A model generated the notes under the pieces. That model searched no databases and was not told the origin of the DNA. It worked only from the letters and a program-made list of their open reading frames with translations. A stretch of 6,083 nucleotides of DNA, taken from NCBI GenBank assembly GCA_046760705.1, contig JBHIER010000218.1, positions 1-6,083 on the forward strand, in the 5' to 3' direction. This DNA comes from JBHIER01 sp046760705 [NCBI: bacterium]. Lineage in GTDB: Bacteria; JBHIER01; G020348925. Below are positions 1-6,083 of this stretch, piece after piece; the stretch's first letter is position 1, and the number at the start of each line of letters is the position of its first letter. A program made the position numbers and the translations under genes.

Positions 1-1079
1 CCGCGTTTGAATCTATGAAGCAGATCTAAATCCTTGTTGAATACCATTAAAGTCCCATCATGGCCCCCGGCGATGATCTCCTTGGCACCATCCCGATTGA
101 GATCTCCCAATATGAATCCGCCAGTGTAGGTTAAAGGAAAATATTTTTTGACGGACCCGGTCTGTCCGTCCCGAACCTGAAGCTCGAACTTCGTATTTGG
201 GTCGTCCACATCTCCGCTGGCAAAGGTGTTAATGACCTCCGTCCGGCCGTCCCGGTCCAAATCTTCGGTTTCAATGTAAGGAGCAAAAAAGATTCCTGAT
301 GTCACCTGCTTCCACAGAAGATTTCCCCTCCTGTCCAGGGCGATAATGTAACTGTGGGCGTCGTCCATACCATTGATTTCATAACCGTTCGAAGGGGCAC
401 TTGTGCTAAGGATAATTTCTTCAGTCCCATTTCCGTAAAGATCATCGATCATAATTCTGATGATATGACAGGCTGTTGGAAAATGCCACAAAAGATTCCC
501 TGTCTCCCAACCGTAGGCGTAAACCCCTCGGGGCAAACGGTCGTAGCCGGTTAGAACAGACGCCAGAATGTCCTTCTGGCCGTCTCTATCGACATCAATA
601 ATATTAAATTTATCAATAAAGCCATCCCATGTGCCATCGCCCCGTTGGTCCACACCGGTGACGGGCTCAGTCTCTTTCAGAAGTTCCCGATTGGCGTCGT
701 ACACCTGAACCCAGGCCGTGTCGCCCATCTTCACAGAGACAAACACCTCAGGGGCCCTGTCGCCGACAATGTCGTGAGCATCCACACCGCGGAACTCCCC
801 CTTGAATATGGGTAGATGCCAGACGGGGCGGAAGATCCCATGATCAGCGTCCCAGAGCAACACACCACGTCGATCCGAGCTCAGGGTAATGACTTCGTCA
901 ATGCCATCGAGGTCGAAGTCGGCCACCGCATAGCGCTCTACCCTTGGTATCCTTGATACCTCCTCCAGGGCAATGTACTGCGGGGTTGGGCCACTCTGAG
1001 CAAGATCGGTCGCAACCGTCAGGGTGCACAGCCCGAAAACGGCCGCTGTAGCCAGCCTACCCTTTCGAAGCGAAATCAC
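1..1079 (-). CDS. Exported FG-GAP/VCBS-repeat beta-propeller protein, 3' end outside window
   Basis: The frame is open from a GTG at 1079-1077 to the left edge (359 codons, no stop seen). The start is fixed by a TAG immediately upstream in frame (1082-1080) and a good ribosome binding site. Residues 1-27 form a Sec-type signal peptide: basic start (R5, K6, R8), hydrophobic core about 9-23, small residues near A23/A27. There is no convincing lipobox. The mature part repeats a calcium-binding DxDxDG-like motif at residues 54-59 (DFDLDG), 162-167 (DVDRDG), 273-278 (DLDRDG) and 326-331 (DLNRDG), with degenerate copies near 103 and 213. Spacing is 49-60 residues, as expected for blades of an integrin-alpha-like propeller. 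GNLLW strands at 194-198 and 252-256 also recall PQQ-type propellers. It probably acts outside the cytoplasm in binding or surface structure. No enzymatic residues are evident and the ligand is unknown. It does not look functionally tied to the redox genes upstream. Confidence 0.88.
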   Translation of the reverse strand, partial: MISLRKGRLATAAVFGLCTLTVATDLAQSGPTPQYIALEEVSRIPRVERYAVADFDLDGIDEVITLSSDRRGVLLWDADHGIFRPVWHLPIFKGEFRGVDAHDIVGDRAPEVFVSVKMGDTAWVQVYDANRELLKETEPVTGVDQRGDGTWDGFIDKFNIIDVDRDGQKDILASVLTGYDRLPRGVYAYGWETGNLLWHFPTACHIIRIMIDDLYGNGTEEIILSTSAPSNGYEINGMDDAHSYIIALDRRGNLLWKQVTSGIFFAPYIETEDLDRDGRTEVINTFASGDVDDPNTKFELQVRDGQTGSVKKYFPLTYTGGFILGDLNRDGAKEIIAGGHDGTLMVFNKDLDLLHRFKR

Positions 1080-1266: not shown

Positions 1267-1314
1267 GCTGTCGCTTCGTCTCTGAGTACGAACAGCCCCA
1301 CCCCCAGAGAGAAA

Positions 1315-1337
1315 TAAACCCGTAAACGGGTAACTCC
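1315..1337 (-). repeat. Short hairpin repeat (GGAGTTACC...GGTTTAT family) at the stop of the 807-aa gene
   Basis: On the minus strand GGAGTTACC begins on the last base of the TAG stop codon. The stem is ACCCG/CGGGT (1318-1322 with 1327-1331) around a four-base loop, followed by TTTATTTCTCTC. The element shares its flanks and loop design with three hairpins at 3767-3853, while the stem bases differ. The weakly T-rich sequence after the stem means it could help end transcription of the redox operon, but the T-run is poor. Confidence 0.75.
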
Positions 1338-3760
1338 TAATGACTGGACAGGATCAACCCCGCTTTGCCAGCGGCGGCGCTGGCCTGGGAGAGAGTTTCA
1401 GATATGGACTGAGGGGAATGGGCAAGACCGCAGATGAAGATCCCATCACGGTCGGTTTCAACCGGCCTCAATTTGGAATCGGCCTCTTTGAAGAATCCAT
1501 TACTATCAAGAGGTACACCCAAAAGCTGCGCCAGCTCAGGGTTTCCCTCAGAGGGCACAATCCCGGTGCTGAGAACCACAATGTCAGCCTTGAGCGCCAC
1601 CAGCTTTTTTGTCGATCTGTCTGCAACAGATACAGTTAAGCCGTCCTTGTCGCTCACTTCAGGAGGACCATCCATGCGAATAAACTGAACACCACTCTCT
1701 TCCGCTTCAGTGAGAAAGTCTTCTTCAAACCCATATGCCCTCATGTCTCTGTGAAGAATGGTAACCTGGGCCTGCGGGGCGATCTCTTTGATCTTGAGCG
1801 TGTTCTTAATGGCCTCAGCACAGCAAATTCGGCTGCAATAGGGATGCTCTTTGTTGCGTGATCCGACGCACTGGATCATCACGACAGAGGCAAGATGAGA
1901 GATGTCAGATGAGAGTGGGGAAAGGAGAGTCTCGAGTTCAATCTGAGTCACAATCCTTTTATCTTTGCCGTACAAATGATCTTTTGGCGTAGAGAGGTCG
2001 GCTCCGGTGGCGACGATGAGGACCCCGTGGTCGACTGTCACATCCTTCCCGTCGGAGGAGATGACCGTCTTGAAGTGGCCAATCTCTCCCTCGAATTCTT
2101 TTAGCAGGGATTTTGTATGAACATGGATTTTCTCGTGGGCTTCGACCTTTTCGACGAGGGTTTTTGCCTGCTCGATGGGGTCCTCCTCACCGAGGTGATA
2201 CTTGAGGCCCTGTATGTTCCCACCGAGGCGTTCGCTCTTATCGACGAGATGGACGTCGAACCCCTGTTCGGCTACGTCCAAGGCCGCGGTCATCCCAGCA
2301 AGGCCACCGCCTAAGACCAGGACGGTAGGAACAGTAGAAGGGTGCTCTTTCCGCCGAGCTTCACCGGTCCGAACCCTCTCCACAGCCTTGGTTATTTCCT
2401 CCTTTGCCAATTCTATATTCATGGAATCTTTGTCGAAGTCCACAATTGTTACCTCGTCTGAGGCAAGTCCGACCTCCTGGGCCATCTCCTCAAATTGTTG
2501 TTGATGGGATTTTGAATAGCAGGGAACAATAACGATCTTATTGACACCGGCCTCTCTCACTGCCTTTGTAATCTCTTCTCTTCCAAAGGGGAGACAACCG
2601 TACAGAGTTTCACCAACGCATGTAACATCTGGCAGTTTCTGGCTGTGCGTCTTCAGAGCCCCAAGGTCGATATTCCCCTGGGTTTGGGCCCCGTATTGGC
2701 ACAAGAAAACCCCGATCATGGCTTTCTCATTCTTTAATGGTTTCGCACCCTGCTCCTCCTGTTGTGGAGGTACAATACCCTTCGGTGATAAGGCCGCCAC
2801 CTTTCCTGCAGCTCCGCTGGCCTGAGCGATGCTCTCCGATATGTCCTTGGGACCGCAGAAGGCCCCGGCCACGTAGACGCCCTCTCGGGACGTGTTCAAA
2901 GGGGCGAAGGGGTTGACGAGGCAGAAATTGTATTTATTCAACTTGATTCGGGTTCTCCGGGATAGGCTCCGGGCGGTGGAGGGCGCTTGCAGGCCGACGG
3001 ACAAGACAACCAGATCGAACTCCTCAGATAGGGATGTTCCATTGTCGGAATATGCGATGGTGACGGTTCCGCTCTCCTTGTTCTCCTTGATGTCAGTCAC
3101 ATCCGCCCGGACAAATTCGACACCCAAATCGTCCTTGGCTTTCCGATAATATTCCTCTGATCCTTTGGTGAGGGGACGGATGTCCCGGTGAAAAAAGGTG
3201 ACGCTCAGCCCTTCTATTCTCTCATGGGCGACAATGGCTTCCTTAAGTGCATAAGTGCAACAGACGTTGGAACAGTAGTTGGCCCCAATGCCCTCTTCGC
3301 GGGAGCCGACGCACTGCACGAAGGCGATTCGTCTTGGGATCTCTCCGTCGAAAGGGCGCATCACCACACCACCGTAAGGCCCGGTTGGGCTCAAAATCCG
3401 CTCGAACTCTATGCTTGTGATCACATTGAAGGATCTGCCGTAACCGAATTCAGATTTGCGATTGGCATCGAATTCATCGAAGCCAGGAGCGAGTATGACC
3501 GCCCCGACCTGCAACTGTATTGTCGCAGGGGATTCATCATACACAATGGCCTTCTGGTCGCATTCAGCCAAACAGAGCCCGCACCCGATGCAGCGTCTGC
3601 AGCTCAAACACCGCTTAGCTTCAGCCACGGCCATCTCCTCGGTGAGACCCAATTCCACCTCCTTGAAATTGAGGCGCCGCTCCTCAAGGGAGAGCTCCGG
3701 CATCTTCGCCCGTTTTGTCGGGATGTCTTTGAATTCAGGTATGAATTTTGGTTTTTTCAT
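1337..3760 (-). CDS. HdrA-like iron-sulfur flavoprotein: C-terminal HdrA half plus a second HdrA-like module (807 aa)
   Basis: HdrA is the flavin and Fe-S electron-bifurcating subunit of heterodisulfide reductase systems. Residues 20-50 (MPELSLEERR...EAKRC) match the segment that usually follows GltD-type domains. Cysteines follow at 51, 54, 57, 60, 63 and 67, enough for one ferredoxin cluster plus an extra pair. Residues 85-325 are the C-terminal half of an HdrA, with QCVGSR (C150) and YCSNVCC (C163, C167, C168), which I take as Fe-S ligands next to the flavin. Residues 348-465 resemble the HdrA N-terminal domain (C354, C389, C414). A new dinucleotide fold starts at G484-G-G-L-A-G489 with D507 and GG at 513-514, then a second QCVGSR (C631) and YCSRICC (C642, C646, C647). 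The C-terminal double ferredoxin of classical HdrA is absent. The first half lacks its own FAD-binding GxGxxG, which lies in the 567-aa gene upstream. The protein is soluble and cytoplasmic. Confidence 0.9.
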   Translation of the reverse strand: MKKPKFIPEFKDIPTKRAKMPELSLEERRLNFKEVELGLTEEMAVAEAKRCLSCRRCIGCGLCLAECDQKAIVYDESPATIQLQVGAVILAPGFDEFDANRKSEFGYGRSFNVITSIEFERILSPTGPYGGVVMRPFDGEIPRRIAFVQCVGSREEGIGANYCSNVCCTYALKEAIVAHERIEGLSVTFFHRDIRPLTKGSEEYYRKAKDDLGVEFVRADVTDIKENKESGTVTIAYSDNGTSLSEEFDLVVLSVGLQAPSTARSLSRRTRIKLNKYNFCLVNPFAPLNTSREGVYVAGAFCGPKDISESIAQASGAAGKVAALSPKGIVPPQQEEQGAKPLKNEKAMIGVFLCQYGAQTQGNIDLGALKTHSQKLPDVTCVGETLYGCLPFGREEITKAVREAGVNKIVIVPCYSKSHQQQFEEMAQEVGLASDEVTIVDFDKDSMNIELAKEEITKAVERVRTGEARRKEHPSTVPTVLVLGGGLAGMTAALDVAEQGFDVHLVDKSERLGGNIQGLKYHLGEEDPIEQAKTLVEKVEAHEKIHVHTKSLLKEFEGEIGHFKTVISSDGKDVTVDHGVLIVATGADLSTPKDHLYGKDKRIVTQIELETLLSPLSSDISHLASVVMIQCVGSRNKEHPYCSRICCAEAIKNTLKIKEIAPQAQVTILHRDMRAYGFEEDFLTEAEESGVQFIRMDGPPEVSDKDGLTVSVADRSTKKLVALKADIVVLSTGIVPSEGNPELAQLLGVPLDSNGFFKEADSKLRPVETDRDGIFICGLAHSPQSISETLSQASAAAGKAGLILSSH

Positions 3761-3766
3761 GGGCTT

Positions 3767-3793
3767 AATAAACCTCTCTGAAGAGGTAACTCC
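3767..3793 (-). repeat. Short hairpin repeat upstream of the 807-aa start
   Basis: On the minus strand: GGAGTTACC at 3793-3785, then an arm, loop and arm, then GGTTTATT. The stem is ACCTCT/AGAGGT (3772-3777 with 3782-3787), six pairs around a four-base loop. Flanks match the copies at 1315-1337 and 3808-3853 but the inner stem bases differ in a paired way. It ends only six bases before the ATG at 3760. Confidence 0.8.
3773..3778 (-). promoter_or_regulatory. Possible Shine-Dalgarno site of the 807-aa gene, inside a hairpin arm
   Basis: GAGAGG on the minus strand is the best purine-rich stretch ahead of the ATG at 3760, but the 12-base spacing is long. It overlaps one arm and the loop of the hairpin at 3772-3787, so it would be partly paired if the hairpin forms. 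No earlier start codon exists in frame after the TAA at 3814-3812, so ATG 3760 is the first usable start. Confidence 0.35.
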
Positions 3794-3807
3794 GATTTGT
3801 TGTTTTT

Positions 3808-3853
3808 GGGGTTACCCGTTCACGGGTTTATAAACCGCTGAAGCGGTAACTCC
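3808..3853. repeat. Head-to-head pair of short hairpin repeats
   Basis: Two copies of the hairpin family face each other. Stem ACCCG/CGGGT occupies 3814-3818 and 3823-3827. Stem ACCGC/GCGGT occupies 3834-3838 and 3843-3847. Both have a TTCA loop on one strand (TGAA on the other). They are joined by the perfect palindrome GGTTTATAAACC (3825-3836), and the outer ends read GGGGTTACC and GGTAACTCC, so the whole unit is nearly symmetrical. Together with the hairpin at 3767-3793 it fills most of the gap between the two HdrA-like genes. Confidence 0.8.
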
Positions 3854-3862
3854 GAGTGCCTC

Positions 3863-5566
3863 CTATTTCGCCAGTTCTCTCAAGTAATTATGTATTCCTT
3901 CTGCTGCAGCGTGACCGGCGGCGATGGCCTCGATCACCGTTGACGGTCCTGTGTCAGCGTCACCACCGGAGAAGATTCCGGGCCGATTCGTCATCTTGGT
4001 TCGCGAATCGATGACGAAAGAGTTCCATTTTGAGATCTCTAAGCCATGTCCTTCATGCAAAAATGATATGTCAGGTTCCTGGCTGATGGCGGGGACAACG
4101 ACGTCCGCCTCCACCACAAATTCCGATCCTTCAACAGGAATGGGGCGCCGTCTCCCACTGGCGTCGAGCTTGCCCAGTTCCATGCGCGTGCAATTCATGC
4201 CGACAACCTTCCCGTTTTCACCAAGAATCTCAACGGGAGCGGCCAGGTAATGAATTTTCACTCCTTCCTTCTCAGCTTCGTCGATCTCCCACGGGTTGGC
4301 CGGCATCTCTCTGCGCGAACGGCGATAGAGGATGGTCACCTCGTCGCTTCCCAGACGGAGGGCCGTGCGAGCCGAATCGATGGCTGAGTTGCCACCACCA
4401 ATAACGACAACTTTCTCACCGGGCTTGGAATGGTCTCCTAAGTTTACTCGTCGCAAAAAGACGATGCAGTCGAGGAAGCCCTCAAAATCGTCCTCTCCCG
4501 GCACGCGGAGCTTCAAGCCCTTGTGCGCCCCGATTCCGAGAAAGATGGCCTTATAGCCCTGCTTGAACAGGTCGTCGATGGTCAAATCCGGGCCGATGGG
4601 TGTGTTCAGCTTTATTTCAACCCCGAGATTCAGGATGTAGTCAACCTCGGTCTGTATGATGTCTCTTGGCAGTCGATACTCGGGAATACCCAACCAGAGC
4701 ATACCTCCCGGCACCGGGGCAGCCTCGAAAATGGTCGATTGGTACCCTTTCAGAGCTAAATCGTGGGCCACGGTCAATCCAGCAGGTCCCGCTCCCACAA
4801 TGGCCACTTTCTCTTTGTAAATCTTTTTCGGTGGTTTTGGCTTGGGCAGTTTCCCCTCGCGAGCGAGCTTCAGTTCATAATCGGCCACAAATCTCTTCAG
4901 TCCATCGATAGCCACAGGCTCATCCTGCCACCCACGATTGCAGGCATCCTCGCAAGGGTGATTGCACACCCGTCCACATATGGCTGGCAGCGGATTTCGC
5001 TCCCGAACTGTGGCCAGGGCCTCCAGAAACTTACCCTCGGCAATCAACCCGACATACTTTCGGATGTTGATGTGGACCGGGCAGGTCTCCTGACAGACGG
5101 GTGTTTCTTTGTCGATACTGTAAATCGGAGGGATAGGACATGTGTTTTGAACGTCGATGGCCGTGCGGAGCACAAGGCCTTCATTGAATGGATCGTATGG
5201 CTTGATAGGACAGACCTGAACACAGGCTCCACATAGGTTACACTTCTCATTCACCCGGAAGGGATCCCTCCGAACAGTGGCCTCAAAATTTCCCACCTCG
5301 CCCTTCAGTCGTTCAAGATTGGCATTGGTGATGAGCTCGATGTTAGGGTGCCTGTTCACCGCATCGAGCATGTGGCTCATCTGGCACAGGGCCGGTCTGT
5401 CCTGAGGGAAGGTTCGATCCAGTTGGGCCATCGTTCCCCCGATGGCCGGAGCCTTATCCAAAAGGTAGACGTGAAAACCCCTCTCAGCCAGGTCCAAGGC
5501 AGATTGGATACCAGCGATTCCGGCCCCAACCACTAAGACTGCTCCGTTCGATCTCTCTTCGCTCAT
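3863..5566 (-). CDS. HdrA N-terminal FAD half with an inserted GltD/NfnB-type NADPH oxidoreductase module (567 aa)
   Basis: This is predicted to move electrons between NADPH and an HdrA flavin/Fe-S chain in the cytoplasm. The first dinucleotide fold has G14-A-G-I-A-G19 with D37 and GG at 43-44, followed by the HdrA-like stretch to about 105. A ferredoxin-type set is C109, C112, C115, C119-P. At about residue 150 the HdrA similarity stops. From C158/C162 a GltD-like module begins: C197, C201, C205, C209 for Fe-S clusters; FAD fold G258-A-G-P-A-G263 with E281 and GG at 287-288; NADPH fold G390-G-G-N-S-A395 with R415, R416, R418, R419, well placed for the 2'-phosphate; and the C-terminal FAD motif GGDADTGPSTVIEAIAAG at 534-551. 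The missing HdrA remainder is encoded by the next gene, in the same reading phase. ATG 5566 is chosen because the FAD motif starts 13 residues later; no clear ribosome binding site precedes it. Partner subunits may lie to the right of the window. Confidence 0.9.
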   Translation of the reverse strand: MSEERSNGAVLVVGAGIAGIQSALDLAERGFHVYLLDKAPAIGGTMAQLDRTFPQDRPALCQMSHMLDAVNRHPNIELITNANLERLKGEVGNFEATVRRDPFRVNEKCNLCGACVQVCPIKPYDPFNEGLVLRTAIDVQNTCPIPPIYSIDKETPVCQETCPVHINIRKYVGLIAEGKFLEALATVRERNPLPAICGRVCNHPCEDACNRGWQDEPVAIDGLKRFVADYELKLAREGKLPKPKPPKKIYKEKVAIVGAGPAGLTVAHDLALKGYQSTIFEAAPVPGGMLWLGIPEYRLPRDIIQTEVDYILNLGVEIKLNTPIGPDLTIDDLFKQGYKAIFLGIGAHKGLKLRVPGEDDFEGFLDCIVFLRRVNLGDHSKPGEKVVVIGGGNSAIDSARTALRLGSDEVTILYRRSRREMPANPWEIDEAEKEGVKIHYLAAPVEILGENGKVVGMNCTRMELGKLDASGRRRPIPVEGSEFVVEADVVVPAISQEPDISFLHEGHGLEISKWNSFVIDSRTKMTNRPGIFSGGDADTGPSTVIEAIAAGHAAAEGIHNYLRELAK

Positions 5567-5590
5567 AGTGTGTTTTCTGTCTTTTTTACA

Positions 5591-5650
5591 ACCCCTAAAT
5601 CCCCCTTTAATAAGGGAGACTCCCTTACCGTCTCCCCTATAAAGGGGAGA
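5591..5650. repeat. Cluster of G/C-rich palindromes upstream of the 567-aa gene
   Basis: Three possible stems lie in the 117-bp gap: CCCTT/AAGGG (5603-5607 with 5612-5616), TAAGGGA/TCCCTTA (5611-5617 with 5621-5627) and a perfect eight-pair stem TCTCCCCT/AGGGGAGA (5631-5638 with 5643-5650, loop ATAA). The first two share an arm, so only one can form at a time. The CCCCTAAATCCCCCTTTA wording resembles dispersed intergenic repeats that I associate with anaerobic bacterial genomes (from memory). No T-run follows, so a plain terminator is unlikely. Confidence 0.65.
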
Positions 5651-5683: not shown

Positions 5684-6083
5684 CTATTTCGAAACGGCTG
5701 CTGCCTGAACTTCTCTGGCCTGCCAGAGGGGACTGTTGTTATCGAAGCCAATGTGGTTCACCAGCCCCATCCTTCGCATATCTGCCAGGTGGCGCAACAC
5801 TTTGTACTTGGGCAATGCCATCCGCTCCGACAGGCTTCTTACCGTGTGCGGTTTTTCCTTGGTTCTCAACAGGATCTCCTGAACGGTGCACTCGTCCAGA
5901 ATCACTTCGTCGAAGAGCCGGTTGATCTCATGCTGAGTGAACACCTCACCGTAGAGATTGCCGTCGTTCAGAAATTCCGTCCGCTTGCCCACCACCCAGC
6001 GGACCTTTTTGCCCTCGACACCATTTTTTGCCGCCGTCAGTTTGAGCTTGAGTTCGTCAGGGGTCACCCCTTCGCCCTGGACC
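5684..6083 (-). CDS. C-terminal part of an unidentified protein ending in a winged-helix domain
   Basis: The frame is open from the right edge to TAG at 5686-5684. A GTG at 6067-6065 could start a 127-aa protein, with AGGG seven bases upstream, but the frame stays open to the edge without a stop, so I prefer a longer gene starting outside. Numbering from that GTG, residues 1-59 are a basic then acidic segment containing VRWVVGKRTEF and GNLYGE. Residues 60-115 look like a winged helix-turn-helix: helix about 61-71, helix 76-83, recognition-type helix 86-100 (PKYKVLRHLADMRRMG), and a wing around 104-115 ending in PLW. It lies 117 bp upstream of the HdrA/GltD gene on the same strand and could be a regulator. 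It could equally be the tail of a redox subunit such as an MvhD- or HdrC-like protein, since its first half resembles no common transcription factor domain. I do not recognise it with certainty. Confidence 0.6.
   Translation of the reverse strand, partial: VQGEGVTPDELKLKLTAAKNGVEGKKVRWVVGKRTEFLNDGNLYGEVFTQHEINRLFDEVILDECTVQEILLRTKEKPHTVRSLSERMALPKYKVLRHLADMRRMGLVNHIGFDNNSPLWQAREVQAAAVSK

Follow-up and report, generated by a model that had tools for sequence, protein, structure and literature searches.

The window, a stretch of 6,083 nucleotides from the bacterium JBHIER01 sp046760705, carries two adjacent genes, P1 and P2, that together encode the parts of an HdrA-GltD protein. The pair is explained with good confidence as an old two-subunit HdrA-GltD flavoprotein of the HdrL type that lies behind an MvhD-HTH gene, was separated by one early cut and acquired its palindromic repeats later. 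The window thus appears to hold a variant of a known enzyme type in which the break is confirmed and the repeats are secondary.

According to this explanation, a single-chain ancestor would have been cut once, in the linker that follows GltD, ahead of the divergence of the split lineage. The gap would afterwards have drifted in both length and phase, and in the lineage of the window a family of REP-like palindromes would later have settled in the existing gap and behind P2. The P1 and P2 chains probably rejoin by assembly in trans.

Domain organization of the locus

The genes, domains and palindromic elements are listed in Table 1. The domains of P1 and P2 are complementary: the HdrA2 profile NF040770 is matched at positions 140-296 by P1 and at positions 284-565 by P2, and the solved HdrA structure 5odc_A is divided in the same manner (residues 146-294 match P1 10-157; residues 283-570 match P2 47-330). 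A second HdrA unit, absent from an earlier note on this DNA, occupies P2 from about 345 to 807, and within it P2 344-569 matches 8rvu_a 9-244. The domain order is that of HdrL and the GltD-containing HdrA proteins, in which the HdrA FAD domain is interrupted by GltD, though here it runs across two genes. The single polypeptide of those proteins is not encoded since a TAG and a TAA stand in frame between P1 and P2.

Table 1. Genes, domains and palindromic elements of the window.
Feature	Positions	Strand	Description
HTH gene tail	5684..6082	-	Probable MvhD-HTH protein, C-terminal winged-helix part; truncated at window edge; PF01022 HTH_5
P1, 567 aa	3863..5566	-	N-terminal half of HdrA FAD domain, then GltD module
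P1 aa 9-157	5096..5542	-	HdrA FAD domain, first half; matches 9sfi_A 145-294 and 5odc_A 146-294
P1 aa 155-563	3878..5104	-	GltD / NfnA-like module; matches NfnA and GltD chains
Intergenic gap P1-P2	3761..3862	-	102 nt, in phase, TAA at 3814-3812
E1	3830..3853	-	GGAGTTACC-GCTTCAGC-GGTTTAT
E2	3808..3831	+	Overlaps E1 in inverted orientation; minus-strand reading supplies the TAA
E3	3767..3793	-	GGAGTTACC-TCTTCAGAGA-GGTTTATT; just ahead of P2 start; direct repeat with E1, spacing 60
P2, 807 aa	1337..3760	-	Ferredoxin cysteines, second half of first HdrA FAD domain, second HdrA unit
P2 aa 47-330	2771..3622	-	Rest of first HdrA (C150/C163/C167/C168, E120, K173); matches 5odc_A 283-570
P2 aa 345-807 (about)	1340..2728	-	Second HdrA unit, no C-terminal ferredoxin domain
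E4	1312..1337	-	Begins inside P2 TAG stop
FG-GAP repeat protein	3-1079	-	Same strand as P1/P2, downstream of P2

The first-codon bases of P1 (5566) and P2 (3760) lie 1806 nt apart, a multiple of three, and the gap amounts to 34 codons, with the P1 TAG and the TAA as the only in-frame stops between the halves. The earlier note had described the two proteins, their common phase, the gap and its one further stop in these terms, and all of this is confirmed by the open reading frames and the two matching HdrA halves. By themselves, the phase agreement and the one stop in 34 codons are unremarkable. Phases match in one case in three by chance, and the chance expectation of stops is 3/64 x 34 = 1.6, so that one stop is close to chance.

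Upstream of P1 the window holds only the tail of the HTH gene. The MvhD part would lie beyond the edge, as judged from relatives; the proteins at the equivalent place of two split relatives contain the Pfam domain FlpD/MvhD (PF02662).

Fused and split relatives

The earlier note had proposed a search for single homologues spanning both genes. In a genome scan, a single protein of 1,541 aa (L001) was found to span P1 and P2. When two candidate regions per genome were scored in the 297 genomes of its phylum, 206 gave a match with E no higher than 1e-150, although many of these matches were partial. At least 79 places in at least 67 of the 297 genomes span query residues ≤20 to ≥1401 within one frame of 1,457-1,767 codons. 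Since fused homologues are common, a single-chain ancestor of P1 and P2 is likely from these sequence comparisons. For alignment, a fused set of 30 rows was assembled from L001 and 29 of 30 fetched loci, further fused places being present in the genomes; L002, L003 and L004 (the last being the same place as L001) stand outside this alignment. An additional 13 "other" rows (t3) were picked by hand from the same scan and include full fused proteins. In the 30 fused rows, the linker from GltD to the next conserved block measures 39-49 residues. The corresponding linker of the window is 33 residues when the gap is omitted and 68 codons when the stop and the gap are included.

Two variations were observed in the family. 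Some fused loci, such as L019, L023 and L030, contain an in-frame TGA that possibly encodes selenocysteine, which has been reported for HdrL1 and HdrL3 (PMC2702500); the window genes contain no such codon. At two other places, L170 1-5201 (G154) and L171 1-5101 (G288), the cut in a protein of the family falls in another linker, the one that joins the first HdrA unit to the second, giving a frame of 917 or 899 codons followed by one of 571; the spacer contains several stops.

Three weaker matches of the scan consist of two ORFs that are broken at the same linker as P1 and P2. The P2 start of these three forms and of the window served as the query (A1) for a search of 395 genomes of one phylum, in which ten candidate regions were scored per genome. 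At E up to 1e-42, matches were obtained in 26 of the 395 genomes: 20 are short separate frames (260-364 aa, at least 187 bits) and six are long frames (1,137-1,514, at most 161 bits). Three of the 20 are in A1 by construction. In every one of the 20 split loci (L204-L223), P1 and P2 are separate ORFs and the cut lies at the linker after GltD. From its homologous start, P2 of these relatives is about 260-300 aa long and is without the second HdrA unit (20/20).

The gaps of the split loci range from 0 to 238 nt when the P2 start is taken as the homologous Met located by motif; with the first start codon in its place, the gaps of L217, L220, L221 and L223 would differ. Twelve gaps are 0-6 nt, one is 13 nt, and seven are 56-238 nt. 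Phases 0, 1 and 2 are found in 15, 2 and 3 loci, respectively, and phase 0 in three of the seven loci with a gap above 20 nt. The exact repeat pattern of the window has no match in the 20 split-form genomes. From these gap lengths and phases, and from the absence of an exact repeat, it follows that neither the repeats nor the phase belong to the break.

At least six of the 20 split genomes (G105, G134, G233, G257, G275, G298) also carry a full-length fused copy. As a result, the split pair is regarded as a lineage of its own and not as a broken fused copy, and it defines a subfamily that some genomes carry alongside fused copies. In genome G316, a reversed locus (L226 111-2535) has formate dehydrogenase-like genes, a likeness that was read from the sequence without a family search, upstream of HdrC, HdrA, MvhD-HTH and the split pair. 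No nearer relative of the window was found among 17 genomes of the order of G009 or 17 genomes of the class of G316.

The position of the window was examined with unrooted trees. The P1 tree, from which L211 and L220 were left out since P1 is cut there, places the window and 18 split rows on one side of a branch and 43 other rows on the other with a support of 100/100, and requires one change of state whether the window is included or not; P1 was not part of the A1 query. In the tree of the P2 start, the window lies on the stem between the 20 split rows and the 43 other rows (100/98), and the shortest paths from it lead to fused rows or to other rows picked by hand. In both trees the best-supported branch groups the window with the split rows, and the window sits on the stem, and therefore the trees alone also allow two separate fissions, one in the window and one in the other 20. 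A tree of the second HdrA unit left its placement unresolved, with an end branch of 2.09. Identity to the window over the P2 start is 42-49% for the 30 fused rows compared to 34-43% for the 20 split rows, in which conserved sites are lost, and the best identities among the split forms are 57% for P1 (over part of its length) and 43% for the P2 start. With a short P2, no cluster cysteines, mostly no K173 and no second HdrA unit, none of the 20 is a close match.

Further weight comes from gene order and derived residues. An MvhD-HTH match lies directly upstream in 17 of the 20 split loci, the other three having only 0-47 nt of upstream sequence. There is no such upstream match in the 30 fused or the 13 other loci, of which four and one, respectively, have less than 500 nt of upstream sequence; two of the 30 fused loci have a weak match downstream. 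The Arg-Arg pair R55 and R56 of P2 is present in the window and in 20/20 split forms versus 0/30 fused forms, and a CLSCRRC motif is common to the window and the split relatives. The window likely belongs with the split forms, which would make the fission old and shared, as far as trees, gene order and residues can indicate.

Palindromic elements at the break

Four elements of the form GGAGTTACC-hairpin-GGTTTAT occur within 6 kb, three in the gap and one on the P2 stop. Their stems, as read from the sequences, vary among the copies but remain self-complementary. The exact pattern GTTACC-N8-GGTTTAT has three copies in the window, two inside the gap and a third where P2 ends, compared to none in 200 shuffles; E3 has a spacer of 10 and falls outside this count. 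The palindromic repeats noted earlier at the break are therefore real. In two cases an element starts no more than 10 nt after a stop codon. REP elements frequently begin shortly after stop codons. A second type of palindromic repeat (CCCCTAAATCCCCCTTTAATAAGGGAG...) was seen by eye at 5588-5645, between the HTH gene and P1.

E4 is terminator-like by pattern; such patterns are no commoner in the window than in its shuffles, and neither promoter nor terminator patterns are in excess. The RNA fold of the gap is weak (z -1.85), and no Rfam family was matched at the gathering score. A search of 395 genomes for GAGTTACC-N8-12-GGTTTAT, with no mismatch allowed, returned one match each in five genomes, which is the chance level since the reversed control pattern returned four. 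In viral contigs, a loose form of the pattern was found in at least 120 stretches, with one match each in the 80 listed, and was read as chance; two stricter patterns had no matches. Viral contigs contained no relative. Plasmids had no DNA match to the gap, and none of 24 plasmid records matching the read-through query covered 80% of it, coverage being at most 40% among the 20 listed.

The end of P2, where E4 overlaps the TAG, falls just ahead of the place where the ferredoxin domain of the fused homologues would start. The idea that E4 may have severed this domain from P2 was considered and is unsupported, as the three minus-strand frames downstream hold no remnant of it.

The earlier note had favored an ancestral single gene broken by repeat insertion or by stops adjacent to the repeats. 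This would be a breakage in the lineage of the window, apart from the other split forms, and it is an unlikely event. Several observations are in its favor: fused forms exist; the read-through linker of 68 codons exceeds the 39-49 of the fused forms by 57-87 nt, a length similar to that of the repeat array in the gap (87 nt); the TAA sits within E2; and the window retains fused-type features that are lost in the split relatives, with a P2 start that is nearer to the fused forms by identity. However, breakage by repeats requires that this linker was cut a second time, despite the gene order and derived residues that the window has in common with the 20 split forms. In addition, the first stop, the TAG of P1, lies 9 nt beyond the array, and repeats are unnecessary for the break since in 13 of the 20 relatives the two separate ORFs lie only 0-13 nt apart. 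Thus, the part of the proposal concerning a single-gene ancestor stands as likely, whereas the 20 of 395 genomes that are split at the same linker without an exact repeat speak against the repeats as a cause, and the grouping of the window with these forms speaks against a recent break. The alternative that the earlier note had also offered, an ancient split with a phase match by luck, fits better.

Under the preferred explanation of one early cut, the repeats most likely entered a pre-existing gap. A different palindrome (GGGCGAGGTTACCTCGCCC) is present within the P1-P2 gap of one split relative (L223, G316), and therefore such a gap can hold repeats. As a general caution, a gene break that contains repeats may have had another cause.

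Cofactor sites and known systems

In the alignment with the 5odc_A chain, P2 residues E120 and K173 fall on positions 356 and 409, and E356/K409 (M. thermolithotrophicus numbering) is the pair that marks bifurcating HdrA flavins (PMC9430772). Both are present in 30/30 fused forms; among the split relatives, E120 is retained in 19/20 and K173 in 1/20. The cluster cysteines C150, C163, C167 and C168 are all present in the window, and each is found in 0/20 split relatives. The short P2 without cluster cysteines that is a trait of those relatives is not seen in the window, where P2 has 807 aa. Of the 21 split forms observed, only that of the window has retained the cluster cysteines together with the Glu/Lys pair and the second HdrA unit. 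This unit has a Glu/Lys pair of its own, E610 and K652, for which the Glu is found in 18/30 and the Lys in 22/30 fused forms. Past the last residue of the window protein, all 30 fused rows contain CxxCxxCxxxC (two motifs in 28 rows, one in 2). The corresponding C-terminal 2x[4Fe-4S] domain is absent from P2 and from the three minus-strand frames downstream.

Among the 30 fused homologues, 38 cysteine columns show a conservation of at least 80%, and 28 of these are kept in the window; those lost are P1 C58, P2 C356 and the eight of the C-terminal domain. P1 C58 is replaced by a gap in 19 of the 20 split relatives and by Gly in one, and its absence is therefore a trait of the group. At positions conserved in at least 95% of the fused rows, P1 keeps 113/123 (93% in the lowest homologue) and P2 keeps 128/191 (94% in the lowest homologue). 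By this measure P2 is strongly diverged. The window could tentatively be placed as a stage between fused HdrL and the split forms that lack the sites, with a bifurcating HdrA flavin site in an FAD domain that would be built from two polypeptides; such a stage is not present in the other split forms sampled.

The loss of ten conserved cysteine columns and of one third of the nearly invariant positions of P2, along with the long end branch of the window in the joined tree (1.64), are features that a decaying pseudogene disabled by stops and repeats might also present. This explanation is highly improbable since P1 and P2 have open frames of 567 and 807 codons, both Glu/Lys pairs persist along with the other cluster cysteines, the loss of P1 C58 is common to the group, and 20 genomes conserve the arrangement. 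Equally improbable is an ancestral two-gene form with a single later fusion as the origin of the fused proteins: the unrooted trees agree with one change, whichever its direction, but the break crosses a single FAD domain that solved HdrA chains contain as one contiguous piece (5odc_A 146-570), so that a contiguous HdrA with an inserted GltD most simply came first, and P2 of the split relatives looks eroded.

Returning to a two-subunit flavoprotein derived from a single chain, the GltD module in P1 would receive electrons from NAD(P)H, as it should by analogy with Moorella HdrA and HdrL, and hand them across ferredoxin-type clusters. The HdrA FAD site would be formed by the dinucleotide-binding half from P1 and by the cluster cysteines, E120/K173 and C-terminal FAD motif from P2, and may send electrons on to HdrA/MvhD/HdrBC partners. 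In anaerobes, GltD-containing HdrA proteins are thought to connect NAD(P)H with other electron carriers. The natural occurrence of a two-chain version suggests that a cut after GltD is tolerated by the FAD domain, and may provide a route to expressing and studying the halves separately.

In a literature search covering mostly papers available without subscription, no description of a break after GltD was encountered. The split pairs L204-L223 share with the window the same break, the MvhD-HTH gene upstream on those contigs that extend far enough, and CLSCRRC; they differ in having a P2 of about 260-300 aa with neither cluster cysteines, second HdrA unit nor exact repeat. The type III HdrA of ANME-1 and Bathyarchaeota (PMC12054007) resembles the window in that GltD is inserted in HdrA, where it is proposed as the entry of NADH. 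It is archaeal, its domain pattern otherwise resembles that of HdrA1 of type I, and the sections covered describe no split form.

The Moorella thermoacetica HdrA (1,487 aa), which is reported to oxidize NADH, has an extra TrxR-like domain interrupted by GltD and then a second HdrA, as in the window, and the Glu and Lys are likewise conserved in both TrxR-like units (PMC9430772). It is, however, one chain with a C-terminal ferredoxin domain (PMC9430772), compared to two chains without such a domain in the window. The HdrL of Desulfobacterium autotrophicum HRM2 also combines HdrA and GltD modules with an adjacent MvhD gene (PMC2702500). It is a heterodisulfide reductase/glutamate synthase fusion with MvhD after it (PMC2702500), whereas the window has a break after GltD and the MvhD-HTH gene upstream. 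According to a supporting-information legend of the same paper, the Hdr domains of HRM2 are encoded by at least two colocalized, colinear genes (HdrA1 to HdrA3: two and three genes; PMC2702500).
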